From: a virus
Direction: 5' to 3' (one strand)
Virus record (IMG/VR): IMGVR_UViG_3300033141_002573
Location: 44,504 to 108,503 of that record
DNA: 64,000 nt
Shown: one piece after another, positions 1,044 to 42,867 of the stretch
How positions within the stretch are numbered: position 1 is the first letter of the stretch
How the letters are laid out: every line of letters starts with the position of its first letter
Notes under the pieces: model-generated
Told to the model about the DNA's origin: nothing
What the model saw: only the letters and a program-made list of their open reading frames with translations
Databases searched by the model: none
Program-made: the position numbers and the translations under genes

Positions 1044-1115
1044 TTTTATCTTCCTCCACATACATGTTGTGAAGGAAGTATACCACAACAACTGCTATTA
1101 TTCAAGCACCATGGG

Positions 1116-14196: not shown

Positions 14197-14256
14197 ACCG
14201 GAAACACATCCCCCATGCTAAGAACTTGTAAGAACATTACTATCCTTATCATGTAC

Positions 14257-14285
14257 ATTGTAACACATATAACACATTATGTCAA
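14257..14285 (-). promoter_or_regulatory. Sigma-70 promoter for protease-capsid block
   Basis: On the minus strand: TTGACA, 17 bases, TACAAT. The -35 is formed by the last codons of the portal gene (TTG ACA TAA). It would start transcription about 55 bases before the protease start. Confidence 0.75.
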
Positions 14286-16166
14286 GGTTACCACCTCCGT
14301 CTCCTCCGAAGCGCCATTATTATCCACCGCAGGTGTAAATGCCTCAGGAAATGCCTTCTGTATGTCATCGGGGTTTGCCACACCCAGATCCTCAAGGATA
14401 GTAGCCATTGTTTGCTGCGCATCTGGAGGAAGAGTCGACGGCTTCTCAGCAACCACAACAGCAGCCTTCTCTGTAGGTACACCCCGTGGCGGCGTCTTCA
14501 TGTTACCAGACACCATCTGCTTCCTACTAGACTCTATGGTCTCCTTAACCTTTTGAGGGCTAACAAATGCAGAAAGTGGCGTGTACCCCTGACCCGCAAT
14601 GTAGAGGATAGGCTCGTCACCACCGGGGAGCCGTGGCATGTGCAACTCCGCCCGTATCTCATTTATCGACGCAGCCCCTCTCGACAGGAGCATATCCCAA
14701 AGTTCCCGCTTCTCCTGAAGATCAAGAAGGTCTGGCACCTCAAGGTCAAGCACCCAATCACGGGTCCCGAACTCCCGCTCAAAGATGTAATTAAACCTTT
14801 GTTCGATAACACGCTGTTCGGGTCTGACAACATACTCAAGGAACCGCCTGTCCATCTCCTGGCTCGTAGCACGATTCAGATCCCTGGTGTTAAACACAAC
14901 AGGCGGAGGCACACGGTATGCTCTTAGCACACCCCTATCGGCATCCTCCCTAAACTGGAGGTAACCACCACTATCACTTAAGTGTTCAGAACTCAAACGC
15001 TCTATCTGGATATCTGTCTCCTCTCCGATCTCAAGGACGAGAACCTGGTTTAGCGCATCAAGCTTGTTCTGCGTCTTTATCCACTCATCAATCGTAGACA
15101 GCACCTTACGGTTGAGACCACCCTCGCCTTTGATGAAAATAGCCAGCCTGGGCACCGTTGCATTGTCAAAGTAAGACAGCATAAACAAACGAGCATTCTG
15201 GGCACCAAGATAGTCCTCAATGGCAGAGATAATAGGTGGCTCCCCATACACAGTATCCCTTGGGGATCTAATAGCAAAGTGCATCATTTCATGCACCGGA
15301 ACCTGTATCTCATCCCCATCCTTTTGTGCCTTCTTCATCCAATCAAAAATGGAACCATACCAGTAGCCATCACGGATGTCAGCCTTGGCAATAAAGGCAC
15401 CCTCCCCATCTTCCGCAGGAATAAACACAGGAAGCCTGGGCATAACAGCCTTACCATCAAGTTGAAAATCCGCAGTATCCCTCCGCACCAACCTAATGGC
15501 CCTAGCGTCCTCGACACCATACTTCACAAACCATTGCTTCCTTGACCCCTTCACCTGAACAAAACCAGGTACGTTCTTCGCAATCCTCATTGTTACAGAT
15601 TTGGCATCCGCCATCTTTGCCAGCCTACCCTGGGCATCACGCATTAACTCCATGTAAGCGTTTCCAGTACAGTAGTAGTCCTGGAACATAGCTGCTAACA
15701 TTTCACTAAAACTATACTCAGGAAGACCAGCCTCGAGCACAGCTACAATCTCGTCCCGCTTCGATTCATCCGGGTGTGGCGAGGACGCCTTCGACGGCGT
15801 TCTTCCTGCCGTGGAAACAGGCCATATCTCCTGCCTTGGCCGAATATGCCACCCCTGCTTAACTACTGCCTCTACAAGAGCGTCAACTGAGGCACGCATG
15901 GTAGCATCCCTCAGGTATAATGCTGTGTAGAAATGGGGAAGTACTGGCGGTTCCACAACCGCGTTCATGTCGTAGTAATCACGCATCCCATCAATAGCAT
16001 CTATCTGCGAACTTACCACTCGCCCCACACTATCGGTCTTGTTTGCCTTCCCCATCCGCCCCATAATGTACAGAAAACGTTGTGCAGCGCTTCCGGTTGG
16101 ATCAGAAATAACAGCAGCCTTAACAAGGTTACCATCCTTGTCCTCAAGATCCATTGTACGGATCAT
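14277..16166 (-). CDS. Portal protein
   Basis: A 629-residue protein immediately after the large terminase, overlapping it by four bases (ATGA). AAGGTGGGG precedes ATG 16166. It has a portal-like plan: an N-terminal clip/stem region, HEMMHFAIRSPRDTVYGEPPI in the middle (similar to the MIHFR.....YG.P motif of HK97/PBSX-type portals), then DLNRATSQEMDRRFLEYVVRPEQ and a Pro/Thr-rich C terminus. It would form the dodecameric DNA gate. I am confident from motif plus gene order. Confidence 0.9.
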   Translation of the reverse strand: MIRTMDLEDKDGNLVKAAVISDPTGSAAQRFLYIMGRMGKANKTDSVGRVVSSQIDAIDGMRDYYDMNAVVEPPVLPHFYTALYLRDATMRASVDALVEAVVKQGWHIRPRQEIWPVSTAGRTPSKASSPHPDESKRDEIVAVLEAGLPEYSFSEMLAAMFQDYYCTGNAYMELMRDAQGRLAKMADAKSVTMRIAKNVPGFVQVKGSRKQWFVKYGVEDARAIRLVRRDTADFQLDGKAVMPRLPVFIPAEDGEGAFIAKADIRDGYWYGSIFDWMKKAQKDGDEIQVPVHEMMHFAIRSPRDTVYGEPPIISAIEDYLGAQNARLFMLSYFDNATVPRLAIFIKGEGGLNRKVLSTIDEWIKTQNKLDALNQVLVLEIGEETDIQIERLSSEHLSDSGGYLQFREDADRGVLRAYRVPPPVVFNTRDLNRATSQEMDRRFLEYVVRPEQRVIEQRFNYIFEREFGTRDWVLDLEVPDLLDLQEKRELWDMLLSRGAASINEIRAELHMPRLPGGDEPILYIAGQGYTPLSAFVSPQKVKETIESSRKQMVSGNMKTPPRGVPTEKAAVVVAEKPSTLPPDAQQTMATILEDLGVANPDDIQKAFPEAFTPAVDNNGASEETEVVTLT

Positions 16167-21689: not shown

Positions 21690-21718
21690 AGGACAAAAGC
21701 CTCGCTTTGTGGTATACT
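21690..21718 (+). promoter_or_regulatory. Rightward sigma-70 promoter
   Basis: AGGACA, 17 bases, TATACT, preceded by TTTGTGG. The TGTGGTAT context also occurs at the promoter at 52060-52088. It would drive the regulator gene from about 21725, giving a leader of about 200 bases that contains one E element. Confidence 0.5.
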
Positions 21719-21798
21719 GCTACCGTAGAAGCAAGCAAGCACACACCTCAAGCGCAAGCTGCAAGCGCAGGGAAGGGAGGACAGAGGGCAAGCGACAC

Positions 21799-21828
21799 TT
21801 TCCTATTCCGAACCCTCGCAGGTAGAAT
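21799..21828 (+). promoter_or_regulatory. E element, copy 1
   Basis: TTTCCT, 18 bases ending TCGCAGG, TAGAAT, followed 4 bases later by GGAAGGGAGG. First member of the 16-copy leader family; lies in the leader of the HTH regulator gene. Confidence 0.75.
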
Positions 21829-21932
21829 CGACGGAAGGGAGGGAAGGTGGACAGTCAAGGCAGTCAAGCAGGTAGACAGAAGGTCCTTCGCTCAAGTAAG
21901 CAAGCAAGCAACGGAAGGAAGGTCAAAGGTCA

Positions 21933-22826
21933 ATGTCCTCAATCACCACAATCGAGCGGTCAACAATAAGGCGAATCGTAGTGTCCTCAATCTATACGGT
22001 CAACGGAGGTGAAGCACCTCAAGACATTATCGAGGAGGTAGAAGGGGACATTTTGGCAGACTTGGCAGAAGCGGATATTACCCTTGACCGGGCACAATTA
22101 ATAAGGGTATACGCCAAGGTCAACGACAGAGAGAGGGTCGAGCAGTACATAAGGGACACTCGACGCGGAATGGTTCGGAAACAGATTTCTGACGCAACCA
22201 GGAACCTGCTTCGCTATCGAGCTATCGAAAGGGCGAGGTTCTGTATAGTCACCGTTGCGGTTCCTGTAGACCTCAAGCAACGAATAACGGTAAACAGCTT
22301 GCTGCAAATGGTAAGAAGTGGCCGGGCTTTCGTAGACCCGGCTTCATACAGCGACACAACAACAAGGCTCGAGGAATTGGCAAGCCTTTCCGCTATACCG
22401 GGGGTCTCAATCAAGATAGAAAAGGGGAAGGAGGTTAATCCCCTCCTTAGTGCGGTCAAGAAGCTAGCATTGCGTTCCGCGAAGTGGCACCTCAAGTTCC
22501 GACAGGCAGAACCCCTCTGGTCACTAGAGGAGGAACACAAGGACAAGATTCCCCTCTGCCGAATCGAAGAGGAGGCAGAGGAGAGAATCGGAAACAAGGA
22601 CTTCACGGCAAAGGTGGAGGAGGTGCTCAATAGGTTCGCGGAGAAGGAGGGGAAGGGAGAAGGGTACAAGGGAAAGCTTGCCAAGACACTTTGGCTTCGG
22701 ATGGACGGGCTTACCGAAGGCGAGGTAGCGAACAGACTCAAGGTGACAGAGAGAAGCGTGAGGACTTATGTCAAGGACCTCAAGAAGGCATTTGGGGAGG
22801 AAGTGGGACTCAACGCGGTAGGATAG
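21933..22826 (+). CDS. HTH regulator, possible sigma-like factor
   Basis: A 297-residue protein. The C terminus (about 250-290) is LAKTLWLRMDGLTEGEVANRLKVTERSVRTYVKDLKKAF. The segment LTEGEVANRLKVTERSVRTY is a helix-turn-helix of the sigma region 4/LuxR kind. The rest is helical and charged with no clear sigma region 2. It is the first gene of the rightward module, its leader carries an E element, and a strong terminator follows it. These facts make it the best candidate regulator of the E-linked genes, but that is inference. It could also be a replication initiator. The start ATG 21933 follows AAAGGT. Confidence 0.65.
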   Translation: MSSITTIERSTIRRIVVSSIYTVNGGEAPQDIIEEVEGDILADLAEADITLDRAQLIRVYAKVNDRERVEQYIRDTRRGMVRKQISDATRNLLRYRAIERARFCIVTVAVPVDLKQRITVNSLLQMVRSGRAFVDPASYSDTTTRLEELASLSAIPGVSIKIEKGKEVNPLLSAVKKLALRSAKWHLKFRQAEPLWSLEEEHKDKIPLCRIEEEAEERIGNKDFTAKVEEVLNRFAEKEGKGEGYKGKLAKTLWLRMDGLTEGEVANRLKVTERSVRTYVKDLKKAFGEEVGLNAVG

Positions 22827-22843
22827 AGCAAGCGTAAAGAAAC

Positions 22844-22876
22844 AAACCCCTTGCAGGTTCAACCTGCAAGGGGTTT
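22844..22876 (+). terminator. Strong intrinsic terminator
   Basis: AAACCCCTTGCAGGTT and AACCTGCAAGGGGTTT form a perfect 16-bp stem with a one-base centre (effective loop 3-5), followed by TCTTTT. It isolates the regulator gene from the repeats and accessory genes downstream. Confidence 0.9.
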
Positions 22877-22887
22877 TCTTTTCGACT

Positions 22888-23092
22888 TGGGTTGGGGGTA
22901 GGGGTTGGGGTTGGGGGTAGGGGTAGGGGTAGGGGTAGGGGTAGGGGTAGGGGTAGGGGTAGGGGTTGGGGTAGGGGTTGGGGTAGGGGTTGGGGTAGGG
23001 GTAGGGGTTGGGGTAGGGGTAGGGGTAGGGGTAGGGGTAGGGGTTGGGGTTGGGGTTGGGGGTAGGGGTAGGGGTAGGGGTAGGGGTAGGGG
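22888..23092. repeat. Telomere-like TTGGGG/TAGGGG tandem array
   Basis: About 205 bp of near-uninterrupted hexamers, GGGGTA with interspersed GGGGTT, roughly 34 units. The plus strand is G-rich and could fold into many four-layer G-quadruplexes; the minus strand is C-rich. There is no gene. Open frames here only encode Gly-Val or Pro-Tyr repeats. Confidence 0.95.
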
Positions 23093-23143
23093 ACCTTCCC
23101 CTTCCCCTTGGACTTGGGTTGGGGAACCCCTTCCCCTCCAACC

Positions 23144-23173
23144 CTTTTACCTGCGACAAGGAGAAATAGGAAA
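23144..23173 (-). promoter_or_regulatory. E element, copy 2 (inverted)
   Basis: On the minus strand: TTTCCT, 18 bases ending GTCGCAGG, TAAAAG. It points leftward into the C-rich strand of the telomere-like array, where no gene exists. Confidence 0.6.
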
Positions 23174-23261
23174 GTCCTTCCCCTTCCCCTTGGACTTGGG
23201 TTGGGGTAGGGGGTTGGGGACCTTCCCCTTCCCCTTGGCCCTTGGCCCTTGGCCTTCAACC

Positions 23262-23291
23262 CTTTTACCTGCGACAAGGAGAAATAGGAAA
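23262..23291 (-). promoter_or_regulatory. E element, copy 3 (inverted)
   Basis: Same sequence as copy 2 on the minus strand. With copy 4 it forms a near-perfect inverted repeat of about 24 bp separated by about 40 bp. Confidence 0.6.
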
Positions 23292-23300
23292 GTCTATAAT
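23271..23300 (+). promoter_or_regulatory. Possible rightward promoter
   Basis: GCGACA, 18 bases, TATAAT. The -10 is perfect and the -35 matches at four of six; it overlaps the inverted E copy 3. It would feed the first accessory gene. Confidence 0.4.
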
Positions 23301-23333
23301 CAATTAATAGCACCTCGAAAAGTTCTCCAACAC

Positions 23334-23363
23334 TTTCCTATTTCTCCTTGTCGCAAGTAGTAT
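23334..23363 (+). promoter_or_regulatory. E element, copy 4
   Basis: TTTCCT, 18 bases ending GTCGCAAG, TAGTAT, then GGAAGGGAA. Leader of the gene at 23415. Confidence 0.75.
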
Positions 23364-23414
23364 CAACGGAAGGGAAAAGACTGCAAGCAGTCAAACAGAA
23401 GGGAGAAACAGAAC

Positions 23415-23741
23415 ATGTCAAGGTCAATCTGTAAGCTGTATGCCGAAGTAGAACCTGAGTACAAGGAGGAGGTGCTGCAAATCGCCTCAATCGCGGAAAA
23501 TGCAATAGCAGGAATTGACGAGTGCTTGCTAAACGAAGGAGAAAGAGTCACCGTCTACGGTTCCGACCAAGGGCCTTCGGTGATTACAGAACTAGGGGAA
23601 GAGGTTGGAACCAATGATAGCGAACTTGCTACATGGTATTCTGACCTCCTTGAAGAGGAGGTGAACCTGCTGCTACCGAAAGGGTTTGTAGCATACTACG
23701 AAGACAATTCCCTTTGGGTAGAGCACCTTGAGGAGGGGTAG
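23415..23741 (+). CDS. Small acidic accessory protein
   Basis: A 108-residue protein, strongly acidic, with GAAGGGAG 9 bases before ATG 23415. Preceded by E copy 4. The C terminus (LPKGFVAYYEDNSLWVEHLEE) resembles that of the 27682 protein (LPEGGYVFWHDNELHWELFEEE), so the two are probably distant paralogues. No known family. Confidence 0.7.
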   Translation: MSRSICKLYAEVEPEYKEEVLQIASIAENAIAGIDECLLNEGERVTVYGSDQGPSVITELGEEVGTNDSELATWYSDLLEEEVNLLLPKGFVAYYEDNSLWVEHLEEG

Positions 23742-23771
23742 TTTCCTATTCTTCCTTATCGCAGGTAGTAA
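23742..23771 (+). promoter_or_regulatory. E element, copy 5
   Basis: TTTCCT, 18 bases ending ATCGCAGG, TAGTAA, starting immediately after the stop of the upstream gene. Followed directly by R hairpin copy A, unlike most E copies. Confidence 0.75.
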
Positions 23772-23772
23772 A

Positions 23773-23828
23773 GGTGACCGGGTGAAGGGTTCCGAACAAG
23801 GAACCCTTCGCCGGGTGTATCCTATACG
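23773..23828 (+). repeat. R hairpin element, copy A
   Basis: CCGGGTG, hairpin AAGGGTTCC-GAACAA-GGAACCCTT, then CGCCGGGTGTATCCTAT, followed by an SD. Inner stem 9 bp; the two CCGG blocks can also pair. Confidence 0.7.
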
Positions 23829-23845
23829 GAAGGGAGAAGAGGGAA

Positions 23846-24022
23846 ATGTGGAAAAGGAAACCTACAGCAAGGGGAATAACAGAGGGTCGAATCATGTGGT
23901 GGGGAAAAGAGAAGGTGGAGGTCGTTCGCTGTTATGGTGCAACGACCTGTGTAAAGTGCGTAAAACTGATATACGTTCCTACCAAGGACCTCGACTTTCC
24001 TGTCGTTGAACCTCGCAAGTAG
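23846..24022 (+). CDS. Small basic CxxC protein
   Basis: A 58-residue basic protein starting at ATG 23846 behind GGAAGGGAG. It contains TTCVKC, a possible half zinc site, and a Trp pair. Its last nine codons are E element copy 6: the TAG of the element is this gene's stop codon. Not recognised. Confidence 0.65.
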   Translation: MWKRKPTARGITEGRIMWWGKEKVEVVRCYGATTCVKCVKLIYVPTKDLDFPVVEPRK

Positions 24023-24025
24023 TAT
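23996..24025 (+). promoter_or_regulatory. E element, copy 6 (inside coding 3' end)
   Basis: TTTCCT, 18 bases ending CTCGCAAG, TAGTAT, then 4 bases and GAAGGGAG. It is translated as the C terminus of the upstream gene. Confidence 0.75.
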
Positions 24026-24046
24026 ATATGAAGGGAGAGAAAACTC

Positions 24047-24301
24047 ATGGAAATAATAGACAAGAGGACAGGTCTTTCAATGAAAGACCTGCATATTCTC
24101 CTCTATCAGGTTCACAGGTTGTCGGAGGCACTACATGAAGCCTGCAAAGAACTTGCCCAATTGAAGTCTATCCGAGAAAACCCGGAGGGCCTAGATACTG
24201 ACGGGCTTCGGGTGAAGACAACTATGGTTGAAAGGGCGGTTCTCCAAAGGGTGGACAGAAACAGGGTTCGGCGGTCTATCCCTTGGGAGGGCGAATACTG
24301 A
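24047..24301 (+). CDS. Small helical accessory protein
   Basis: An 84-residue protein, ATG 24047 behind GAAGGGAG. Helical N terminus (HILLYQVHRLSEALHEACKELAQL), basic C terminus. Downstream of E copy 6. Not recognised. Confidence 0.7.
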   Translation: MEIIDKRTGLSMKDLHILLYQVHRLSEALHEACKELAQLKSIRENPEGLDTDGLRVKTTMVERAVLQRVDRNRVRRSIPWEGEY

Positions 24302-24335
24302 AACGGTGTGGAGGTTGTGCTTCTCAAATCACACG

Positions 24336-24390
24336 TATGATGACCGGGTGAAGGGTTCCGAACAAGGAACCCTTCGCCGGGTGTATCATA
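24336..24390 (+). repeat. R hairpin element, copy B
   Basis: Outer arms TATGAT and ATCATA; the CCGGGTG and CGCCGGGTG blocks; inner hairpin AAGGGTTCC-GAACAA-GGAACCCTT. The outer arms differ from copy C but keep pairing. Confidence 0.75.
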
Positions 24391-24408
24391 ACACAAGGAG
24401 GTCAGCAC

Positions 24409-24438
24409 TTTCCTATTCCACCACGTCGCAGGTAGTAA
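24409..24438 (+). promoter_or_regulatory. E element, copy 7
   Basis: TTTCCT, 18 bases ending GTCGCAGG, TAGTAA, then 4 bases and GAAGGGAG. It follows R copy B by 18 bases and serves the gene at 24472. Confidence 0.75.
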
Positions 24439-24471
24439 AGGTGAAGGGAGAACAAAAAGGAGGGAAAAGAA

Positions 24472-24945
24472 ATGAAAGCAGTGCTGTGGTACGCAAGCAG
24501 ATGGGGTTACGAAATACGTGTCGTGGACATGGACACGGGAGAGGAGCTTGACCACTATCAAGCAGGCAACCACAAGCTTGATTCTGGACAACAAGCAGCG
24601 CGAGGAAGTCGGTGGGCCATGTCCTTAAGAGACATAGTGAAGGATGCGCGGGAAACCGCGCAGGACATGGCAGACGAGTGGGGGGTCCCACACGAAAATA
24701 TCCTCCTTGACGAGGAATGCGAGGAGGACACTACAGAGGTCGACGGGTTCGTAGAAAGCCTCCGCAATGAATGGTGCCTCGATGATGCGGGCATTGAGGC
24801 TACCCTTGATGAAATGGGATTAGTTGCACTCTATAGGTGCAATAATCCCCTTCATCGAGGCTTGTTTGCGCGAAACAGGAATGACCCGTCAAAGCTGACC
24901 TGCGGGTGTTCTGTGGAGAGTGGGGAACTTGTAGCATATGAGTGA
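24472..24945 (+). CDS. Accessory protein of unknown function
   Basis: A 157-residue acidic protein; AAGGAGG 11 bases before ATG 24472. Begins with a beta hairpin (VLWYASRWGYEIRVVDM), then helices. The C terminus carries C-x-N-P and CGC, a possible metal site. Not recognised. Confidence 0.7.
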   Translation: MKAVLWYASRWGYEIRVVDMDTGEELDHYQAGNHKLDSGQQAARGSRWAMSLRDIVKDARETAQDMADEWGVPHENILLDEECEEDTTEVDGFVESLRNEWCLDDAGIEATLDEMGLVALYRCNNPLHRGLFARNRNDPSKLTCGCSVESGELVAYE

Positions 24946-24956
24946 AGGGAGAGGTT

Positions 24957-25232
24957 ATGATGAGCGAAATAGCAGACTACGTTGAGCGGCTGGCGAGGGA
25001 AATCGCCAGTGACCAGAAGGTTCCTCCGTGGGGAGAGGTGGGTGTGTGGGGAAGAGAGGAGGAAAATCCGGCCCTTGTTATTCTGGAGGAGGCTGAAGCG
25101 CCTCCGACCACTACGGAACTGGAAGGGGAGGCATATGCAGCATTGCTTCTCTCTAAGCTGAATGCGTTCCTCCCTCCAGCGCTTTGTGCATACTGGAGAA
25201 ATGGACTCTTGATGGTGAAGGACATTAGCTAA
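24957..25232 (+). CDS. Small acidic accessory protein
   Basis: A 91-residue protein. GAAGGGAGAGG sits 3-9 bases before the ATG pair at 24957/24960, so an upstream in-frame ATG (24942) overlapping the SD is rejected. Acidic, with a C-terminal hydrophobic helix. Overlaps no neighbour. Not recognised. Confidence 0.7.
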   Translation: MMSEIADYVERLAREIASDQKVPPWGEVGVWGREEENPALVILEEAEAPPTTTELEGEAYAALLLSKLNAFLPPALCAYWRNGLLMVKDIS

Positions 25233-25257
25233 CTACTCCCTCCCTCCCTTCCACCGG

Positions 25258-25313
25258 TCATGATGACCGGGTAAAGGGCCTTTTCCCGAGGCCCTTTGCC
25301 GGGTGTATCATGA
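25258..25313 (+). repeat. R hairpin element, copy C
   Basis: Outer arms TCATGAT and ATCATGA (7 bp, perfect), CCGGGT and GCCGGGTGT blocks, inner hairpin AAAGGGCCT-TTTCCCG-AGGCCCTTT. Inner and outer stem sequences differ from copy B yet remain paired: compensatory change. Confidence 0.8.
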
Positions 25314-25323
25314 AGTGAACCAG

Positions 25324-25353
25324 TTTCCTATTTTCTACCCTCGCAGGTAGAGC
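25324..25353 (+). promoter_or_regulatory. E element, copy 8
   Basis: TTTCCT, 18 bases ending CTCGCAGG, TAGAGC, then 4 bases and GAAGGGAGG. Follows R copy C by 10 bases. Confidence 0.75.
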
Positions 25354-25372
25354 AGATGAAGGGAGGTGACAT

Positions 25373-25609
25373 ATGAGCATACCCAATATTTCTGAAGCGG
25401 CGCAGGATTACCGTGATAGCCTCCGCAAGGAGGGGCGGCTCTATGCTTCATTCGGCCCGGTGCCGGAGGAAGCGGTTCCGACTCTGCTGGAGATGCTAGA
25501 AGACCCGCTCCAGTGGGCATTTGTTCAAGGCGTCTACCTAGAAAGCGATAGCTTGCCCGATGAGTTGGAGGCCGCCTGCAAACGTGCCTTCGGACCCCTA
25601 CCATACTGA
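25373..25609 (+). CDS. Small accessory protein
   Basis: A 78-residue acidic helical protein, ATG 25373 behind GAAGGGAGG. Contains PTLLEMLEDPLQWAFVQG. Not recognised. Confidence 0.7.
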   Translation: MSIPNISEAAQDYRDSLRKEGRLYASFGPVPEEAVPTLLEMLEDPLQWAFVQGVYLESDSLPDELEAACKRAFGPLPY

Positions 25610-25624
25610 TTGGGAGGTGCTATC

Positions 25625-25795
25625 ATGAAGTGCGAGGTGTGCCGTAAGCGACCCGCAACAGCAGTCATGAGGTACACATACACCGTACCTGATGACTGTC
25701 CCGACCTGCTGGTATGCGATGAATGTGCAACGTTCATTCAAGAACGAGAGGGGGACTGCATGGCAAGGTTCGACCTTGCAGACAACAATAAGTAA
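25625..25795 (+). CDS. Zinc-ribbon-like small protein
   Basis: A 56-residue protein with CEVC near the N terminus and CDEC about 30 residues later, a four-Cys zinc ribbon. GGGAGG lies 7 bases before ATG 25625; an earlier in-frame start overlaps the SD. Probably binds nucleic acid or protein; role unknown. Confidence 0.7.
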   Translation: MKCEVCRKRPATAVMRYTYTVPDDCPDLLVCDECATFIQEREGDCMARFDLADNNK

Positions 25796-25812
25796 AGGGA
25801 GGTTGAACGTAG

Positions 25813-25842
25813 TTTCCTGTCAGGTCACGTCGCAGGTAGAGT
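25813..25842 (+). promoter_or_regulatory. E element, copy 9
   Basis: TTTCCT, 18 bases ending GTCGCAGG, TAGAGT, then 4 bases and GGAGGGAGG. Confidence 0.75.
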
Positions 25843-25863
25843 ATACGGAGGGAGGTGTTCATA

Positions 25864-26085
25864 ATGAGAACCTTACTTCGCGACGTGGAGGGTCCCACAA
25901 AAATTGCCGTTGTTGAGGTCGACAACTGGTATCATGTCGAACTCAACTGGGAGAATGAAGGCACTCACGTCAGTCAATGCCGCCTTGCCCGAACCGCAGG
26001 AGGTGCCTTGGACCTGGCCGCGCACCTTGCAGCAGTGAGGCTGGGCAAGGGAAGGTGGGCCGTAGCAGCCTTCATCACACCGTAG
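25864..26085 (+). CDS. Small accessory protein
   Basis: A 73-residue protein starting at ATG 25864 behind GGAGGGAGG. Compact alpha/beta pattern with an Ala-rich helix (AGGALDLAAHLAAVRLG). A degenerate E-like end (GCAAGTAG at 26085-26092) follows its stop. Not recognised. Confidence 0.7.
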   Translation: MRTLLRDVEGPTKIAVVEVDNWYHVELNWENEGTHVSQCRLARTAGGALDLAAHLAAVRLGKGRWAVAAFITP

Positions 26086-26116
26086 CAAGTAGAGAGAAAC
26101 TGAAGGGAGGCCACAA

Positions 26117-26380
26117 ATGGCACTGACACCAAATGAAATGATGGGGGTACTCGACGGGGCAAGGATAGTAAAGCATGACCCCGACCACGACGTGTTGTTT
26201 ATCTGGCACGGAGGGCACGGGGTCAGTGGCTTTATCTGCGATGAGAACGGTGAGTGGGTGGAGGCAGTTTACTACAACACAGGAGACTTTGGGCAAAGGG
26301 ATGCGTCGGAGGAGGACGTTATCAGTAGCATTGAAGAACGTATATCCCATCTTGATGACCCCGAGTTTTGGGAAATGTAG
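26117..26380 (+). CDS. Small acidic accessory protein
   Basis: An 87-residue protein, ATG 26117 behind GAAGGGAGG. The phrase DVLFIWHGGHGVSGFICDENGE recalls the 29547 gene (VVYDEWHGTIWVWYGGRNIYNLN), so these may be distant paralogues. Not recognised. Confidence 0.7.
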   Translation: MALTPNEMMGVLDGARIVKHDPDHDVLFIWHGGHGVSGFICDENGEWVEAVYYNTGDFGQRDASEEDVISSIEERISHLDDPEFWEM

Positions 26381-26382
26381 AG

Positions 26383-26412
26383 TTTCCTATTCCGGGGCTT
26401 CGCAAGTAGTAT
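26383..26412 (+). promoter_or_regulatory. E element, copy 10
   Basis: TTTCCT, 18 bases ending TTCGCAAG, TAGTAT, then 4 bases and GAAGGGAA. Begins 2 bases after the upstream stop. Confidence 0.75.
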
Positions 26413-26443
26413 AGGTGAAGGGAACCGTAAGGAGGGAGAAACA

Positions 26444-26878
26444 ATGAAAAGGCGCACGGACCTGAAGCCCCAGGACATCCTGAAAACCAGAATCAAAAAG
26501 GGCAGAATGTTCCTGGGGCCACCTTACGCAGGATGCTTCGGGGGAATGATGCCGTGTATTCTGCACAGCCGTCGAAGCGGGCTTTACCTTGTGGGGTTGG
26601 AAATGTTTGTGACAGAACTAGCGCCACGGCTATGGTACTGGGAGGGTAAACGAATCTACTTCATGGACGAAACGGCGCGTAAGCGCCGTGACCGTCGCAG
26701 GGCAGTATGGGTGTTCAAGACCGCGAAACCAGCAAAGAAAAGGTTCCTTGCAATGTGTGAGGAAGTGGAGGAGTACAACCGCCGCGCCCGTGAAAAAGCA
26801 CGGGAGGCGATGAAGAAACTTGAATCTGACGACCCGTCCGTCCGCATTGAGGGCGCATTGGCGCTCAACGACCTCTGA
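26444..26878 (+). CDS. Basic accessory protein
   Basis: A 144-residue basic protein, ATG 26444 behind AAGGAGGGAG. It has a Gly/Pro-rich core (FLGPPYAGCFGGMMPC) and a long basic helix (EEYNRRAREKAREAMKKLE). May bind nucleic acid. Not recognised. Confidence 0.7.
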   Translation: MKRRTDLKPQDILKTRIKKGRMFLGPPYAGCFGGMMPCILHSRRSGLYLVGLEMFVTELAPRLWYWEGKRIYFMDETARKRRDRRRAVWVFKTAKPAKKRFLAMCEEVEEYNRRAREKAREAMKKLESDDPSVRIEGALALNDL

Positions 26879-26891
26879 GGGAGGGAGTACC

Positions 26892-27125
26892 ATGAGTTAT
26901 GACGAACCCGAATATGAGCGGGTGTGGAGGGCGGGGGACATTCAGGTATCAAGGCATGTTCACGGAACAGGAACCTGGAACAGCCCTCCGCCTTACGTCG
27001 CCTGGTACGGCACGTATGCAACAGGGGCACAAACAGCAAAGGAAGCCTTGTGCTGGTTAGCAAGCATGGCTGCATTGGTGTGCTACAGGCTGACTGACAA
27101 CGGGAAAGGAGGCGCAACGTGTTAA
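26892..27125 (+). CDS. Small accessory protein
   Basis: A 77-residue protein, ATG 26892 behind GAGGGAGGGAG. An upstream in-frame ATG lies inside the previous gene and is rejected. Trp/Tyr-rich strand region then a helix. Overlaps the next gene by 7 bases (GTGTTAA). Confidence 0.7.
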   Translation: MSYDEPEYERVWRAGDIQVSRHVHGTGTWNSPPPYVAWYGTYATGAQTAKEALCWLASMAALVCYRLTDNGKGGATC

Positions 27126-27319
27126 AGCATACGTACTACAGCAGGCGTCGTCCGTTCTGGTTGGGGGCCGGCAGTAGAATGTTGGAGGACCTTCCGCCTG
27201 ACGGCAAGATAGAGTACATAGAGGCGCATTGTCTACCCGATGGCGTACTGGGAGGGGTCCGAACAAGTCATCCCCTAAGTGACGCTCTAGTCACAAGTTG
27301 GGACCTTGAGGAGGTGTGA
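27119..27319 (+). CDS. Small accessory protein
   Basis: A 66-residue protein starting at GTG 27119 behind AAAGGAGG. Its end, GAGGAGGTGTGA, begins the block that is duplicated at 27613. Not recognised. Confidence 0.7.
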   Translation: MLKHTYYSRRRPFWLGAGSRMLEDLPPDGKIEYIEAHCLPDGVLGGVRTSHPLSDALVTSWDLEEV

Positions 27320-27324
27320 ATGAT

Positions 27325-27354
27325 TTTCCTGTTCAACAGCCTCGCAAGTAGGGA
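27325..27354 (+). promoter_or_regulatory. E element, copy 11
   Basis: TTTCCT, 18 bases ending CTCGCAAG, TAGGGA, then 4 bases and GAAAGGGG. Spacer identical to copy 12. Confidence 0.75.
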
Positions 27355-27376
27355 ATGTGAAAGGGGACTAGGTAGT

Positions 27377-27625
27377 ATGCCCAAGTTTGCAACCTTTGAT
27401 GAGGCCAAGGAAACACTCAAAGCGTGGGACATTGGGGTGGCTATAGCCTTACACACAGGAGGACCACTCCCCAGCGAGGAAGACCGCGCTAAGGCTGCCG
27501 CAGCACAAGCCGACATAGCCGACGCTTGGGTCGTGAGGGAGAGAGTCCGCATACTGTCACGCTCGCCGTTGCGCTCTGAAAGTGAAAAGGCACTACTTCG
27601 CCGAATCCTCGGCGAGGAGGTGTGA
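27377..27625 (+). CDS. Small helical accessory protein
   Basis: An 82-residue protein. ATG 27377 is chosen; the frame is open from an ATG at 27320, but that would translate the E element. Helical throughout (PSEEDRAKAAAAQADIADAW). Ends in EEV-stop, like the upstream gene, as part of a duplicated block. Confidence 0.65.
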   Translation: MPKFATFDEAKETLKAWDIGVAIALHTGGPLPSEEDRAKAAAAQADIADAWVVRERVRILSRSPLRSESEKALLRRILGEEV

Positions 27626-27630
27626 ATGAT

Positions 27631-27660
27631 TTTCCTGTTCAACAGCCTCGCAAGTAGAGA
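27631..27660 (+). promoter_or_regulatory. E element, copy 12
   Basis: TTTCCT, 18 bases ending CTCGCAAG, TAGAGA, then 4 bases and GAAAGGAGG. About 55 bp around it nearly duplicate the region around copy 11. Confidence 0.75.
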
Positions 27661-27681
27661 ATATGAAAGGAGGCCTTGACA

Positions 27682-28077
27682 ATGACAGACAATGACGTTG
27701 AAAACGCTTTGAAGGAACTGGCAACCACGGTTGCAGATGGTTGCCGAAGACAGTATGCGTCCCCCTATAATGCAGAGGAGGTCGACCCTGATTATGTGAG
27801 GGACAATAACCTAGACCCGAAGGGTACGGCCTACGCGCTCATTGCCTTCGGGTCTAATTGTGGACCCCCGGCAGACGAAATGATAGCGGAGGAAATAGGA
27901 CTCTCTCCTGACGAGTACTACGAGGGAGGTTATCAAGACTGGAACTTCGGAGACGAGTTAGAACGCCTGGTATACGAACGTCTACCTGAGGGAGGTTATG
28001 TATTCTGGCACGACAACGAACTACACTGGGAACTTTTCGAGGAGGAGAGTGACAACAACACGGAAGCGGTAGAGTAA
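27682..28077 (+). CDS. Acidic accessory protein
   Basis: A 131-residue acidic protein; AAAGGAGG 9 bases before ATG 27682. The C-terminal beta hairpin LPEGGYVFWHDNELHWELFEE parallels the end of the 23415 protein. Candidate anti-restriction-like acidic protein only by composition; no motif. Confidence 0.7.
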   Translation: MTDNDVENALKELATTVADGCRRQYASPYNAEEVDPDYVRDNNLDPKGTAYALIAFGSNCGPPADEMIAEEIGLSPDEYYEGGYQDWNFGDELERLVYERLPEGGYVFWHDNELHWELFEEESDNNTEAVE

Positions 28078-28079
28078 AC

Positions 28080-28109
28080 TTTCCTATGTCAGGACCTCGC
28101 AGCCAGTAC
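28080..28109 (+). promoter_or_regulatory. E element, copy 13 (variant)
   Basis: TTTCCT, 18 bases ending CTCGCAGC, CAGTAC: the TAG is changed to CAG. Then 4 bases and GGAG. Confidence 0.6.
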
Positions 28110-28126
28110 AAAAGGAGATGACAGGA

Positions 28127-28642
28127 ATGAAACCAGTACCCTTGTCTGAATGGCGGTTGGGGTACTCAACCGCCAGGTCAATTGCGGAGGCCTTGTGGGG
28201 GCGCGGGGGAACCAGCAGCGAAAAATGCAACCGCAAAGGGGCATTCTACTTCCTATGCTCCGGGCACGGTGGGTATGTGATAGACAGCAATGCCCTCACT
28301 CAACAAGAACGGAAACAGGTGAATGACCTGCTGGCCGATGAATACGTCTACCTTTTCGTACAAGACAGAGAGGGCGTTCCTACAGTCATCGGCGTACGTC
28401 ATCCGTACAGCACGAGACCCGTAGGTGTGCGATACCCCGTGAGGTGGGGAGAACCTCGCATTGTCGAACATCCAATAGTGATTGCAGAGGAGGACTGTGA
28501 TTGGGCAGTAGTGGAACTATTCACGGGGGTCAGGTCGGAGTGGGCAACGAAGAAGGATGAAGAGAACATCGCCCTAGCTATACAACGCCGACAGGATACC
28601 GTGAATGCGCTCAAACATTACCGAGAGGAGATAGCACAATGA
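28127..28642 (+). CDS. Accessory protein of unknown function
   Basis: A 171-residue protein; AAAGGAG 9 bases before ATG 28127, preferred over the in-frame ATG at 28118. Contains FYFLCSGHGGYVIDSNALT, reminiscent of small phage proteins with a Cys-x-Gly-His-Gly-Gly core. Ends with ATGA overlapping the next gene. Confidence 0.7.
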   Translation: MKPVPLSEWRLGYSTARSIAEALWGRGGTSSEKCNRKGAFYFLCSGHGGYVIDSNALTQQERKQVNDLLADEYVYLFVQDREGVPTVIGVRHPYSTRPVGVRYPVRWGEPRIVEHPIVIAEEDCDWAVVELFTGVRSEWATKKDEENIALAIQRRQDTVNALKHYREEIAQ

Positions 28643-28884
28643 CCTGGGCAGAGTTTGTTGAATACTGGGCAAAGTACATCGGGAGAGTTTCCGTAGAGGA
28701 CGAGGGAGCGTTCCGAAGAAACGCGACACAGGCGTTGCACAACGCGAAAGAAGGGAAGAAACAGGTGTTGATTCCTGAGTACCCTGGGGGAATCAAGCCG
28801 GGGAAGTATGATACCGTTACACTCCTGAGGCAGCACAAGGACAACCCGGAGGCGATAGCGTTCATTGCAGACATGTTGGAATGA
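28639..28884 (+). CDS. Small accessory protein
   Basis: An 81-residue protein, ATGA-coupled to the gene upstream, with GAGGAG before ATG 28639. The start MTWAEFVEYW resembles MTWVEKLAPDY at 29756, perhaps by chance. Helical and charged. Not recognised. Confidence 0.7.
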   Translation: MTWAEFVEYWAKYIGRVSVEDEGAFRRNATQALHNAKEGKKQVLIPEYPGGIKPGKYDTVTLLRQHKDNPEAIAFIADMLE

Positions 28885-28885
28885 G

Positions 28886-28915
28886 TTTCCTGTTTCATCC
28901 CATCGCAAGTAGTAC
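28886..28915 (+). promoter_or_regulatory. E element, copy 14
   Basis: TTTCCT, 18 bases ending ATCGCAAG, TAGTAC, then 4 bases and GAAAGGAGG. Starts right after the TGA upstream. Confidence 0.75.
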
Positions 28916-28936
28916 AAGTGAAAGGAGGTGATGCAA

Positions 28937-29560
28937 ATGGGAAACCTCGATGACATGGTTGAGGTTGCCCCTTACTACTCAGTGAGAGTTAGCTGGGCGG
29001 AAGTAGCCGCGTACCTAAGGGCACACGGGATTCCTGCGGAGGTCAAGGTGTGGAGACCCCGTTCGGCCTCCGGGGGCTTTGCGTACGACCCACGTGTCAC
29101 GGTTGTGGTGCCTCCGATTGATGCTGAAACTGCCAAGAAAGCATACATAGACTACATGCACGACAAGAAGGAGCACAGCCGAGTCATCCTTGATGGACTC
29201 TCGTTGGAGGAAATAACAGCATGGGAGGTAAAGCACTGGGGCCTGGAATACATGGGGTGGTATGGAGTATTCAGTCACGCCGTAGCAGTAGACAAGGCTC
29301 ACTATGGGGTCATAGCATACTACCTGGGAGGTGAAATATGGGAGCGGTACAGGGCAATGCTTGTGGACCGTAACGGGAGGAGGCGGCCTGAAGGCGCTGC
29401 ATGGGCATTCAATGATGACCTAACTGGGCTCTCACAAACATGGTACTCGCAAAAACCGGGAAGTGACTGGACAGGTCTCCCCAAGAGTCTTGCAAACAGT
29501 GCATTTTCCGCTGCGGGCGTCTCGCAGGTAAGAGAGGAGGGGAAATATGAATCTGGCTAA
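28937..29560 (+). CDS. Accessory protein of unknown function
   Basis: A 207-residue protein; AAAGGAGG 8 bases before ATG 28937, so earlier in-frame GTG/ATG codons are less likely. Contains VSWAEVAAYLRAHGIPAEVKVW and long aromatic stretches. E copy 15 lies within its 3' coding end. Not recognised. Confidence 0.7.
   Translation: MGNLDDMVEVAPYYSVRVSWAEVAAYLRAHGIPAEVKVWRPRSASGGFAYDPRVTVVVPPIDAETAKKAYIDYMHDKKEHSRVILDGLSLEEITAWEVKHWGLEYMGWYGVFSHAVAVDKAHYGVIAYYLGGEIWERYRAMLVDRNGRRRPEGAAWAFNDDLTGLSQTWYSQKPGSDWTGLPKSLANSAFSAAGVSQVREEGKYESG
29515..29544 (+). promoter_or_regulatory. E element, copy 15 (variant, inside coding end)
   Basis: TTTCCG, 18 bases ending CTCGCAGG, TAAGAG, then GAGGGG. One base off in TTTCCT and TAA in place of TAG, which keeps the host reading frame open. 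Confidence 0.55.
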
Positions 29561-29759
29561 GTTGGACGGTGCCATGATGGTGGTGTACGATGAGTGGCAC
29601 GGAACAATATGGGTGTGGTACGGAGGCCGAAACATTTACAACCTGAATCAGAAAGGAGAGGTGCTGAAAGGCGTGACGTTGAATGAAGAGGACTCAAGCG
29701 ACGGAGAAAGTGTCGCCTCGTTTGTGTACAACATGATAAAGGAGAATGAACAAACATGA
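29547..29759 (+). CDS. Small accessory protein
   Basis: A 70-residue protein, ATG 29547 behind GAGGAGGGG, overlapping the upstream gene by 14 bases. Trp-rich strands (HGTIWVWYGG). Possible distant paralogue of 26117. Confidence 0.7.
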   Translation: MNLAKLDGAMMVVYDEWHGTIWVWYGGRNIYNLNQKGEVLKGVTLNEEDSSDGESVASFVYNMIKENEQT

Positions 29760-30097
29760 CCTGGGTGGAAAAACTGGCACCAGACTACCTGAGGACCTCC
29801 CCCAAGATGACGGCGATTCTCGGAGCATTGACGGGGGAAAGGTGGACAGAACCTCGAATGATTAGGATATACATCACTTCAGACAGATTCGCGCTGGGGG
29901 AACATGAGGGTGAGGTGGGCGCAAACTACTTCATCGGGGCAGCAAGTGACCTGGAGCGCAACATCAATGGGGTGTGCAACGCAGTAGGGCTAACTCCCAC
30001 CGAACGGGTGGAGTTTGCGCGAACAGCAATGAAGCACATTGAGGCGCATGGGAACATAGACATTAACTACGCCTTCGGCATTGACAGCATCGAATAA
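29756..30097 (+). CDS. Accessory protein of unknown function
   Basis: A 113-residue protein, ATGA-coupled to the upstream gene; GGAG 12 bases before. Alpha/beta pattern with IRIYITSDRFALG. Not recognised. Confidence 0.7.
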   Translation: MTWVEKLAPDYLRTSPKMTAILGALTGERWTEPRMIRIYITSDRFALGEHEGEVGANYFIGAASDLERNINGVCNAVGLTPTERVEFARTAMKHIEAHGNIDINYAFGIDSIE

Positions 30098-30111
30098 GGG
30101 AGGGAACCCGA

Positions 30112-30300
30112 ATGGGTGACGCAGCAAGCATAGTGCTCCTAACAGCGGGGGGTGGTTTCCTACTCATCCTCATGATATGTGGCGTGATTGCCGCCATACT
30201 GAATGGGTGGTATGGGCATACGAAGGCAAGGCGTCGAGGACGAGTAGAATGGGGTCGGACGGCACAACTGCTCACCACCAAGACAAAACGGCGTAAGTGA
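30112..30300 (+). CDS. Small single-pass membrane protein
   Basis: A 62-residue protein, ATG 30112 behind GGGAGGG. Residues 5-32 form one membrane helix (IVLLTAGGGFLLILMICGVI); the C terminus is very basic and should be cytoplasmic. Unknown role. Confidence 0.75.
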   Translation: MGDAASIVLLTAGGGFLLILMICGVIAAILNGWYGHTKARRRGRVEWGRTAQLLTTKTKRRK

Positions 30301-30322
30301 AAGTAGTGAAGGAGGGGTACAT

Positions 30323-31858
30323 ATGTACGTAGAAAGCGAGCAGGAACATCTAAACCGCCTTAGGGAAATCTCCCGTATGGCTATGGAGGATGACAACCTC
30401 AAGGTTCTGAGAGGGCGGGTGTTGATTCCCTCAAGTGGGTACACAATTAATGGGACACACATTCATGAGTGGAGAAAAGCCTTGGAGCGTCGCATGGGAA
30501 TCACAGGACATATCAAAACTCGGCTCCAACCTCATGTCAAGGGCGAAATAACGTGGTTGAAAGAGTCTCTGTGCTACAGTAGGGCTAACTACCAGGCACT
30601 CAGAATAGGACTCGCTACCACACCTAAAGACGGAAAACTCGTGCCGATACCTCTCCACCAACTCGTTAAGGAGGCAGAGGAGTACGAAAGCTTTCAGAAT
30701 GAAAGTCATGCACGGGAAATAGCACGCATCTACCGGCGCATAGAAGTACAGAACCATCAGACCAGGGGTCTGCTGTATGCCCACATTCCCTGTAGTGAGG
30801 AGCGAAGCACACGCGGCTATGTACCCTTCTGGGAGAAGCATGGAACACTTGTCCTTAGTCCTGCTATCCGTGCGGAACCTGTAGGGCCTGGGAAGGCTGA
30901 GGTGCAGGTCACAGTACTATCGGGCGAGACAGTTATCGACACGTTCATTACATCGGCAAGGCCACAGGTTTCAAACCCCACCGCACGTGAAGAGCGCTTC
31001 TATTGCTCAGATGGAAGCGTAGTGTACCTGCGCCCTCCCAACCTGCGCCAGTACCTGGCCTTGATTGATAAAGCAACCTACAACCCGTCATCGAGTAAGT
31101 ATTACACAGTTGAAACGGGCAACATAAGCTCATTGAGGAAAGCCCTAACAGGCACAGGCAAGGTGGCCGCCTCCAAGAATGAGCACCACATTCTTGGAAA
31201 CGTGCTGATAGAAATCCGTGAAGACAAACTGTCCATCACTGGTACGGACAACCACACCTTGATAAGGTCACACCAGATTCCGATACAGGGGTACGAAAAC
31301 GATGAAGAACTTCTGGTTCCAGGACCATTCGCAGTAGCAGTCGGAGAGAAAACGGTCGATGGGGAACCCATATCCATCGGCGTTGGGCCGGATTCTCTGC
31401 GCGTCATACAAGGAGAACTAGACATCGCAACCCCGTTAGCCAAAGGGATATACCCCAACATCGAAAAACTAATAGCTTACAGGTGGAGGAAGACAACATC
31501 TCTGGGACCTGCTCCTGCGTTGAGAAATGCCATTAGAAAAACAAAGAATCACGTGGAACCATACGCACTCCGCAAGATACACCTGGTTCCCCAAGAGGGA
31601 ATATGGGTGCTCACGGTTCACAAGGGTGGGAGGAACGGAGAAGATTATGTCGTTCCGCTACCCGACAGCAAGGCCAGTGATGATGATGAGATAGTGGCCC
31701 TTAGCAGAGACCATCTCATGCAAGTAGCACAAATGACCCAGGAGCATGTGGTGATGCACTACATGCCCAGTACACTTCCCTTGTCGTTCAATGTCCCAGA
31801 GTGGGATACGTGCCTCGTAAGTCCAATGCTAGTAACCATCGGAGGTGAAGCACAATGA
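30323..31858 (+). CDS. Sliding-clamp-like protein with extra N-terminal domain
   Basis: A 511-residue protein, ATG 30323 behind AAGGAGGGG. From about residue 265 it resembles a DnaN-type beta clamp. LRKALTGTGKVAASKNEHHI begins the first clamp-like segment, LSITGTDNHTLIRSHQIPI matches the clamp strand pattern (LxLxATDxxxxxxxxIP), LLVPGPFAVAVGE follows, and the end VPEWDTCLVSPMLV recalls the clamp C terminus (LxMPM). Residues 1-260 are unrelated and unrecognised. It could hold a phage polymerase on DNA or act in late transcription. A second clamp-like gene is at 38408. Confidence is moderate: motif-level match only. Confidence 0.65.
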   Translation: MYVESEQEHLNRLREISRMAMEDDNLKVLRGRVLIPSSGYTINGTHIHEWRKALERRMGITGHIKTRLQPHVKGEITWLKESLCYSRANYQALRIGLATTPKDGKLVPIPLHQLVKEAEEYESFQNESHAREIARIYRRIEVQNHQTRGLLYAHIPCSEERSTRGYVPFWEKHGTLVLSPAIRAEPVGPGKAEVQVTVLSGETVIDTFITSARPQVSNPTAREERFYCSDGSVVYLRPPNLRQYLALIDKATYNPSSSKYYTVETGNISSLRKALTGTGKVAASKNEHHILGNVLIEIREDKLSITGTDNHTLIRSHQIPIQGYENDEELLVPGPFAVAVGEKTVDGEPISIGVGPDSLRVIQGELDIATPLAKGIYPNIEKLIAYRWRKTTSLGPAPALRNAIRKTKNHVEPYALRKIHLVPQEGIWVLTVHKGGRNGEDYVVPLPDSKASDDDEIVALSRDHLMQVAQMTQEHVVMHYMPSTLPLSFNVPEWDTCLVSPMLVTIGGEAQ

Positions 31859-32190
31859 CGCCGAAAGTCATATTCTGGTTCAGTCGACGGACGGACCAGA
31901 CCGGGCCGCGTTCGACATGCGACAGCACGGTCCAGGCAATTGTCAAAGCCGTAAGTCGGGCGCTGGAGATTCCAGCAACCATTCACATCGACCAGGGAAA
32001 CCCAGGCGATTATGTTGACCTCAGCGTAGAGGTGCCGACCGATGACACGCTCGAACGTTTTCTCGATGCGTTGTCGGCTGGCGGACTTACCAGCATAGAC
32101 TACGACAGCATTGATAGCGCCGATGGTGGCGCTATCAAGGACAAAGACCTGTCGGCACGCCTGGAGTCCTACGGAGTAACCGTGTGGTAG
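31855..32190 (+). CDS. Small accessory protein
   Basis: A 111-residue acidic protein, ATGA-coupled to the clamp-like gene; GGAGG 10 bases before ATG 31855. Alpha/beta layout. May partner the clamp-like protein; not recognised. Confidence 0.7.
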   Translation: MTPKVIFWFSRRTDQTGPRSTCDSTVQAIVKAVSRALEIPATIHIDQGNPGDYVDLSVEVPTDDTLERFLDALSAGGLTSIDYDSIDSADGGAIKDKDLSARLESYGVTVW

Positions 32191-32220
32191 ATTCCTATTA
32201 TGGTTCCTCGCAGGTAGACA
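32191..32220 (+). promoter_or_regulatory. E element, copy 16
   Basis: ATTCCT (one mismatch), 18 bases ending CTCGCAGG, TAGACA, then 4 bases and GAAAGGAG. The last clear member of the family; none is seen after 32.2 kb. Confidence 0.65.
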
Positions 32221-32240
32221 TGGTGAAAGGAGATAGGAGC

Positions 32241-32402
32241 ATGGAACTGATAGTTGCCGCAAGAAAGGCGTTGGACACCTATCAAAGGCGGGCGGCAAAC
32301 GCCAAGGCGCGATGGAACCACGAGCAGTACCGTATCGCAACGATAATGGCCGACCGCGCTGCCAGGCTTCTGGCTGCGTTAGAAAAGGAGACAGAAAAGT
32401 GA
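32241..32402 (+). CDS. Small helical accessory protein
   Basis: A 53-residue, mostly helical, basic protein; ATG 32241 behind AAAGGAGATAGG. The in-frame start upstream overlaps E copy 16 and is rejected. Overlaps the next start (GTGA). Confidence 0.65.
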   Translation: MELIVAARKALDTYQRRAANAKARWNHEQYRIATIMADRAARLLAALEKETEK

Positions 32403-35048: not shown

Positions 35049-35255
35049 ATGAAGTACCAAGTGGCGCATACAGTGGATGGATTGGGTGGGCGCTATCCGG
35101 GCGGCGGAATCGTGGATACAGAGGTAGATAGCCTAGCCAAGGCCCGCCGGTTGGCCGCCAGGCTAACGGCGGTGGGGCAATGCGGCTACATAGTACGTGT
35201 GGCCGATGGCGCAATCGAAATGCCCGATGGCTCGTGGTTCGTTCCGAAGCAATAG
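35049..35255 (+). CDS. Small accessory protein
   Basis: A 68-residue protein, ATG 35049 behind AAGGAGGG. Its TAG lies in the left arm of R hairpin copy D. Compact alpha/beta pattern. Not recognised. Confidence 0.7.
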   Translation: MKYQVAHTVDGLGGRYPGGGIVDTEVDSLAKARRLAARLTAVGQCGYIVRVADGAIEMPDGSWFVPKQ

Positions 35256-35308
35256 GTAGCCGGGTCCTGCCCTCGCATTGACGAGGGTGGGGGCCGGGCG
35301 TATCCTAT
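35252..35308 (+). repeat. R hairpin element, copy D
   Basis: Outer arms ATAGG and CCTAT, blocks CCGGGT and GCCGGGCGTAT, inner stem CCCTCG and CGAGGG. Followed by CGGGAGG and the GTG of the next gene. Confidence 0.75.
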
Positions 35309-35325
35309 GACGGGAGGTGAAAGCC

Positions 35326-35964: not shown

Positions 35965-35970
35965 TCAGGC

Positions 35971-36024
35971 ATAGGTGGCCGGGTCCTGCTCTCGGCCCCC
36001 GAGGGTAGGGCCGGGTGTATCCTA
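35971..36024 (+). repeat. R hairpin element, copy E
   Basis: Outer TAGG and CCTA, blocks CCGGGT and GCCGGGTGTAT, inner CTCGG-CCC-CCGAG. Followed by AGACAGGGAGG and ATG 36045. Confidence 0.75.
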
Positions 36025-36044
36025 AGACAGGGAGGTGCAAGGCA

Positions 36045-42731: not shown

Positions 42732-42862
42732 TGATCATCTGCATCGCAGCGGGGATAGTCATCGTACTCTTGGTAGTGGCTGCCACGCTGTCCACTAAGG
42801 ACATCAACAAGACCATAGAGCGTGCGGCCATTGCCAGTATCTTCTTCATCGACGAAGGTTGA
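42731..42862 (+). CDS. Very small membrane protein
   Basis: A 43-residue protein starting at GTG 42731 behind GAGGAGG. One N-terminal membrane helix (MIICIAAGIVIVLLVVAA) and an amphipathic tail. Sits between the zinc-ribbon protein and the ComM-like ATPase. Confidence 0.65.
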   Translation: MIICIAAGIVIVLLVVAATLSTKDINKTIERAAIASIFFIDEG

Positions 42863-42867
42863 TGCCA

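Follow-up and report, generated by a model that had tools for sequence, protein, structure and literature searches.

We describe a repeated bipartite DNA element, here called E, in a 64,000-nucleotide (nt) window comprising bases 44504-108503 of a 108,503-base IMG/VR contig (IMGVR_UViG_3300033141_002573; coordinates below are those of the window unless marked as of the record). E is probably a phage-specific promoter, a copy of which precedes every small transcription unit within one block of genes, and a specificity other than that of sigma-A is the best-supported reading of it. The record carries terminase, portal, head-tail and tail genes and is that of a tailed phage, a virus that was previously unsampled. 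The case for a non-standard promoter combines the fixed spacing of the two boxes of E, a promoter geometry that extends to the pyrimidine/purine step at the presumed start, the occurrence of a copy for each gene group, the absence of a sigma-A -10 hexamer and the lack of an RNA structure shared by the copies. From these features we infer the promoter function, the start site, the involvement of a factor and the order of events proposed below.

A first-pass annotation of the window had counted 14 copies on the plus strand and two on the minus strand, and the count was reproduced exactly: TTTCCT-N11-TCGCARGTAG, with at most two mismatches, is found at 16 places (14 plus, two minus), against a chance expectation of 0.09 and a maximum of two places when the same scan was run on 100 shuffled sequences. 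The scan refutes the idea that E is an artefact of chance or low complexity, to which we give practically no credence. The element scans covered the whole 108.5-kb record, including the part outside the window. Exact matches to TTTCCT...TCGCARG number 13, always with a gap of 11 bases, none of the other gap lengths between 5 and 19 occurring anywhere in the record, so that the invariant spacing claimed earlier stands. All 12 occurrences of TCGCARGTAG in the record lie within E elements. A position-weight scan of the record gave 47-58 bits for 12 strong plus-strand copies, 28 and 36 bits for the minus-strand copies and 18 bits for the copy at 28080; nothing further exceeded the threshold, the copy at 29505 falling below it, and no copy lies outside 21.8-32.2 kb, the interval to which all had been assigned. 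The copies are not, however, of equal quality. Twelve are strong, but the copy at 28080 is degenerate, that at 29505 is doubtful and may be a chance match, and the two minus-strand copies are inverted duplicates (Table 1). Likewise, the TAG said to follow the second box is present in the strong plus-strand copies, but is replaced by TAA in both minus-strand copies and at 29505, and by CAG at 28080. An additional E-like site at about 26066-26106 (CAGCCT-N11-TAGCAAGTAG...CTGAAGGGAGG), upstream of gene 26117, is possibly a further degenerate copy.

Both boxes described at first belong to E, but the true unit is longer, at about 45 nt, and includes an additional conserved A, T and Y as well as Y-G-R-A-R-G-G. 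The aligned copies read A-N-TTTCCTRTY-N6-Y-N-TCGCARGTAG-N6-Y-GRARGGR, with an information content, summed over the column values, of about 46 bits. An invariant A lies two bases 5' of TTTCCT, position 8 is T and position 9 is Y, followed by six free bases, a Y and one free base; 3' of TAG there are six partly purine-rich bases and then Y, G and RARGGR at fixed spacing. The six-base interior is almost random while the boxes stay at one exact spacing, and this pattern requires selection on the boxes. It argues against a very improbable alternative, in which E is a recombination or cassette boundary spread by homologous exchange between genes and has little regulatory role. That idea draws on the copies at 27325 and 27631, which share 57 nt at 96% identity and flank gene 27377-27625 in the manner of an insertion between direct repeats; these repeats (span 27308-27670) each consist of the end of the preceding gene and E, which gives the gene the appearance of an insertion that arose through recombination between leaders. 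Exchange of this kind does not account for boxes that remain fixed around a diverged interior, nor for an orientation of E that is tied to the downstream genes.

The purine tract at the 3' end of E resembles a Shine-Dalgarno sequence (SD) and in many copies serves as one. In the copies at 21799, 23334, 24409 and 26383, by contrast, a separate SD of the gene lies nearer the start codon, yet the distance from TAG to the tract does not change; because the tract persists even where it has no SD role, it belongs to E itself. At 23742 it is replaced by a hairpin, H (see below), with the bases before it retained. Transcripts had been predicted to start at the SD; this agrees with those copies in which the tract is the SD, but not with the four in which it is not, and we propose the conserved G that opens the tract as the start. 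With this G as +1, TTTCCT would span -34 to -29 and TCGCARGTAG -17 to -8, a layout that we take to be normal for a promoter, with a Y/R step at -1/+1. Compared with TATAAT, the TAG hexamer agrees at only two to five of six positions, and no neighboring offset tested gave a consistently better sigma-A -10 in the copies; E is thus not a sigma-A promoter. In the mechanism that we propose, the role of the -35 box would fall to TTTCCTRTY, at about -34 to -26, and that of the -10 region to TCGCARGTAG, at about -17 to -8, RNA would start at the conserved G following Y, and GRARGGR would form the 5' end of the transcript.

The location of E relative to genes points in the same direction. The genes of the block were re-called by hand and the intergenic gaps then measured: all 12 gaps of at least 49 nt hold E, as against one (24022-24047) of the 13 shorter gaps or overlaps. 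Thus, E heads every gene group; the groups comprise one to six genes, and the remaining genes of the block are for the most part tightly coupled to the preceding gene. All plus-strand copies have the orientation of their downstream gene and, among the strong ones, only the copy at 23996 overlaps the end of a called gene. Moreover, because a strong terminator closes the gene for a helix-turn-helix (HTH) protein, the first of the block, transcription of the following gene has to begin anew, and the copy at 23334 is located there.

Table 1. Copies of E and associated features (window coordinates).
Feature	Coordinates	Strand	Remarks
Sigma-70-type promoter-like site, AGGACA-17-TATACT with TG	21690..21718	+	upstream of E copy 1 and HTH gene; consensus match only
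E copy 1 (21799)	21797..21841	+	upstream of HTH gene; purine tract 91 nt from start codon, not SD
First block gene, 297 aa, C-terminal HTH, candidate E factor	21933..22826	+	mixed Mga/HTH_11/sigma region 4 type
Intrinsic terminator 3' of HTH gene	22844..22876	+	perfect; also readable on minus strand
E copy, TAA variant	23147..23175	-	inverted near-duplicate of 23334
E copy, TAA variant	23265..23293	-	inverted near-duplicate of 23334
E copy (23334), first past terminator	23332..23376	+	tract 38 nt from start, not SD
Block of about 23 genes, mostly small, in E-headed groups	23415..32402	+	includes beta-clamp-like 30323-31858
E copy (23742)	23740..23777	+	RNA hairpin H directly after, in place of purine tract
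E copy (23996)	23994..24038	+	overlaps end of gene 23846-24022
E copy (24409)	24407..24451	+	tract not SD; separate SD nearer start
E copy	25322..25366	+	
E copy	25811..25855	+	
E copy (26383)	26381..26425	+	tract not SD
E copy (27325)	27323..27367	+	96% identity to copy 27631 over 57 nt, upstream flank included
E copy (27631)	27629..27673	+	96% identity to copy 27325 over 57 nt, upstream flank included
Degenerate E copy (28080), TCGCAGC-CAG	28078..28120	+	18 bits
E copy, top score	28884..28928	+	
Doubtful E copy (29505), TTTCCG...TAA	29503..29545	+	within gene 28937-29560; below scan threshold
Last E copy, ATTCCT	32189..32233	+	

E could also act at the level of RNA. TTTCCT would pair with the purine tract AGGRRG, masking the ribosome site until a protein or a ribosome opens it, and the core of the two sequences is indeed pairable in all aligned copies if G-U pairs are counted. 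We regard such an RNA leader as improbable. Any pyrimidine box could pair with a purine tract, and covariation support is absent: the alignment fold of E has seven pairs, joining TTTCCT to the purine tract, and two-sided change is found in the outermost pair only, which is broken in four of 11 sequences. Folds of single copies have energies near those of shuffled sequences, except where hairpin H is included, so that neither the single-copy folds nor the alignment fold revealed a structure common to the copies. Furthermore, in four copies the ribosome site is distinct from the tract that pairs, the invariance of TCGCARGTAG, as the loop box, would require a reason of its own, and no Rfam match was found in the window, for E or for H. 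A leader peptide was also considered, as TTT...TAG forms a single frame in all strong plus-strand copies (FP[IV]...R[RK] followed by the stop), yet in-frame stops lie just upstream of some copies and there is no synonymous change, both of which speak against a leader peptide as a rule.

The behavior of H is the opposite. This second leader family (n = 5: 23770-23826, 24336-24392, 25258-25315, 35250-35310 and 35970-36026) is a long hairpin of RNA in which a G.G mismatch is conserved; it stands before E, after E or alone ahead of genes. Its folding z-scores range from -3 to -8.5 across the five copies and, with the method applied to E, two-sided changes are seen in 10 of its 20 pairs. H is a real structured RNA and, given its strong pair covariation and the lack of covariation in E, E behaves like a DNA element, H like an RNA element. 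A role for the H hairpins as terminators was dropped, because they lack a U tract and one is placed between E and the SD.

Since E looks like a promoter that would escape recognition by the standard machinery of the host, the virus probably makes its own recognition factor. E would be read by the host RNA polymerase together with a specificity factor supplied by the phage, whether a divergent sigma or an activator that appropriates a sigma. The factor could be the HTH protein, a second protein of 92 amino acids (aa), or neither. The whole HTH protein matches the sigma70-ECF superfamily weakly (E-value 0.0015, 18.2 bits, for a cut-off of 42.9). The 92-aa protein (record 15115-15393; L011) is encoded directly past DNA polymerase A and matches, weakly, sigma region 4 only, of the SigH-like type (E-value 2e-5, 24 bits, for a cut-off of 212); it is possibly a transcription co-factor. 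The polymerase itself (record 12537-15134; L011) is fused to a uracil-DNA-glycosylase domain and a 3'-5' exonuclease. In the order of events that we envisage, a host-type promoter at 21690 would first drive the HTH gene, in a unit closed by the terminator; the E units would then be switched on by the HTH protein or by a different early product, for instance the 92-aa protein, and the same factor, acting through the copy at 21799, would also switch on the HTH gene itself. The promoter call at 21690-21718 is weak, as sigma-70-like sites are not clearly enriched in the region (13, against 8.9 in shuffled sequences, with a standard deviation of 3.4). A more specific form of the proposal, that E is the promoter of an undescribed sigma family whose specificity subunit, the 297-aa protein alone or as a split pair with the 92-aa protein, reads an unusually long -35/-10/initial-transcribed element, is tentative and on balance rather doubtful.

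Several observations weigh against a promoter read by a phage factor. Sigma region 2 was not detected in the record. The N-terminal 240 aa of the HTH protein, searched separately, gave no match, and the C-terminal 57 aa match Mga, HTH_11 and GerE as well as sigma region 4. Single-sequence structure prediction for this protein was uninformative (predicted local distance difference test score, pLDDT, of 37) and established no sigma fold; the prediction for the 92-aa protein was uninformative as well, both having failed because there are too few relatives. The sole relative found lacks E in the corresponding block. Finally, the two minus-strand copies face no clear gene. They sit between the copy at 23334 and a telomere-like, G-rich GGGGTAGGGGTTGGGG array (22887-23110, in steps of about 12 nt), itself located next to the two-way terminator, and would send RNA leftward into the array, toward the terminator at 22844-22876. 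The initial proposal of a promoter for a non-standard sigma factor or a modified polymerase is partly supported: spacing, geometry, position, the absence of a sigma-A -10 and the lack of a shared RNA structure favor a non-standard specificity, but neither sigma region 2 nor an RNA polymerase beta' domain was detected in the record. PF00940 (T7-type RNA polymerase) had no match, but the control genomes also gave none.

Alternatively, E may be mainly an operator, bound by a repressor (stoperator-like) or by an activator over weak promoters, in which case the conserved letters would be contacts of the regulator rather than of a sigma factor. Asymmetric repeated sites with an orientation bias occur in temperate phages, an integrase gene at 44412-45245 suggests that this phage is temperate, and the first gene of the block codes for an HTH protein and is preceded by E. 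We nevertheless consider an operator unlikely: there is no consistent sigma-A -10 in the copies at the offsets tested, the span of about 45 nt has the geometry of a promoter and takes in the presumed start region, and E is limited to one block, whereas a general repressor would be expected to act elsewhere in the genome too. The gene at 42859-44388 encodes a Mg-chelatase/ComM-like protein, in a phage, with kin in unannotated human gut phages at up to about 44% identity.

Pattern scans of IMG/VR and of 84,980 genomes of GTDB returned only isolated matches at chance level. Two IMG/VR contigs (L009 and L010) have the same DNA around one exact match and no similarity to the window, and a GTDB match (L020) lies inside an open reading frame; all of these are chance-level matches. 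Relatives were sought with the HTH protein, clamp, portal, capsid and terminase, and a single one was found, a 19-kb contig (L014) with terminase and capsid about 63-64% identical and with synteny across the structural genes. As its block is without E, the element seems to be specific to a narrow lineage. At 1-5300 (minus strand) the same contig carries repeated hairpin leaders between stop codon and SD (family A, n = 5; family B, about four), and the habit of using hairpin leaders seems to be common to the lineage. Matches to the DNA polymerase were too broad and distant to point to a host. None of the small genes of the block that were searched had a function in Pfam or PHROG, and for three block proteins searched no homologues were found in annotated phages. 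The block also codes for a 511-aa DNA polymerase beta-clamp-like protein (30323-31858) with a long, unmatched N-terminal part.

The E block offers a clean, testable regulon in a phage lineage of which a single relative is known; from a dozen copies, the sequence to be recognized can be defined at nearly every base, and the block opens with a gene for a candidate factor. If the promoter reading is true, E adds a specificity unlike that of the phage promoter classes compared here and illustrates how the expression program of a phage may be revealed by sequence alone. Repeated promoter-type elements are, as a kind, already known from phage 7-11, cluster K mycobacteriophages and halovirus HF2. The ESAS of cluster K phages are intergenic repeats of 46-47 bp with putative promoters (PMC3203893, PMC11373665); like E, they lie upstream of several genes, mostly in one orientation, and have an SD-adjacent part. 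Unlike E, they hold SigA-like -35/-10 hexamers and an imperfect 17-bp inverted repeat. E contains no inverted repeat, its conserved columns being asymmetric, and with neither this feature nor SigA boxes it is not an ESAS. In the middle promoters of T4, a MotA box is combined with a sigma-70 -10 (PMC2988021), so that the -35 gives way to a phage box whose distance from the -10 is nearly fixed, as may be the case in E; the -10 of T4 is, however, strictly TATAAT-like, and E, which lacks such a -10, is not of the MotA type. The class I intergenic repeats of HF2 (58 bp), which were shown to carry promoters (PMC8707807), resemble E as multi-block repeats limited to one part of the genome, but belong to an archaeal virus with TATA-box promoters, read without sigma. 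The late promoters of phage 7-11, GTAAtg-(16)-aCTA, occur in eight copies before late genes and are read by the phage sigma SaPh711_gp47; phage sigmas can be very divergent, phi32_gp36 and 7-11 gp47 being 15% identical (PMC8948821). Like these promoters, E is bipartite, has a fixed spacing, differs from sigma-70 promoters and is repeated in one phage. In contrast, E (TTTCCTRT-N9-TCGCARGTAG) is much longer and lies ahead of small, non-structural genes, and whereas the 7-11 promoters use the host RNA polymerase with a phage sigma, such a factor is only proposed for E. By analogy, the element would function most like the promoters of the 7-11 class, which provide a proven analogue.

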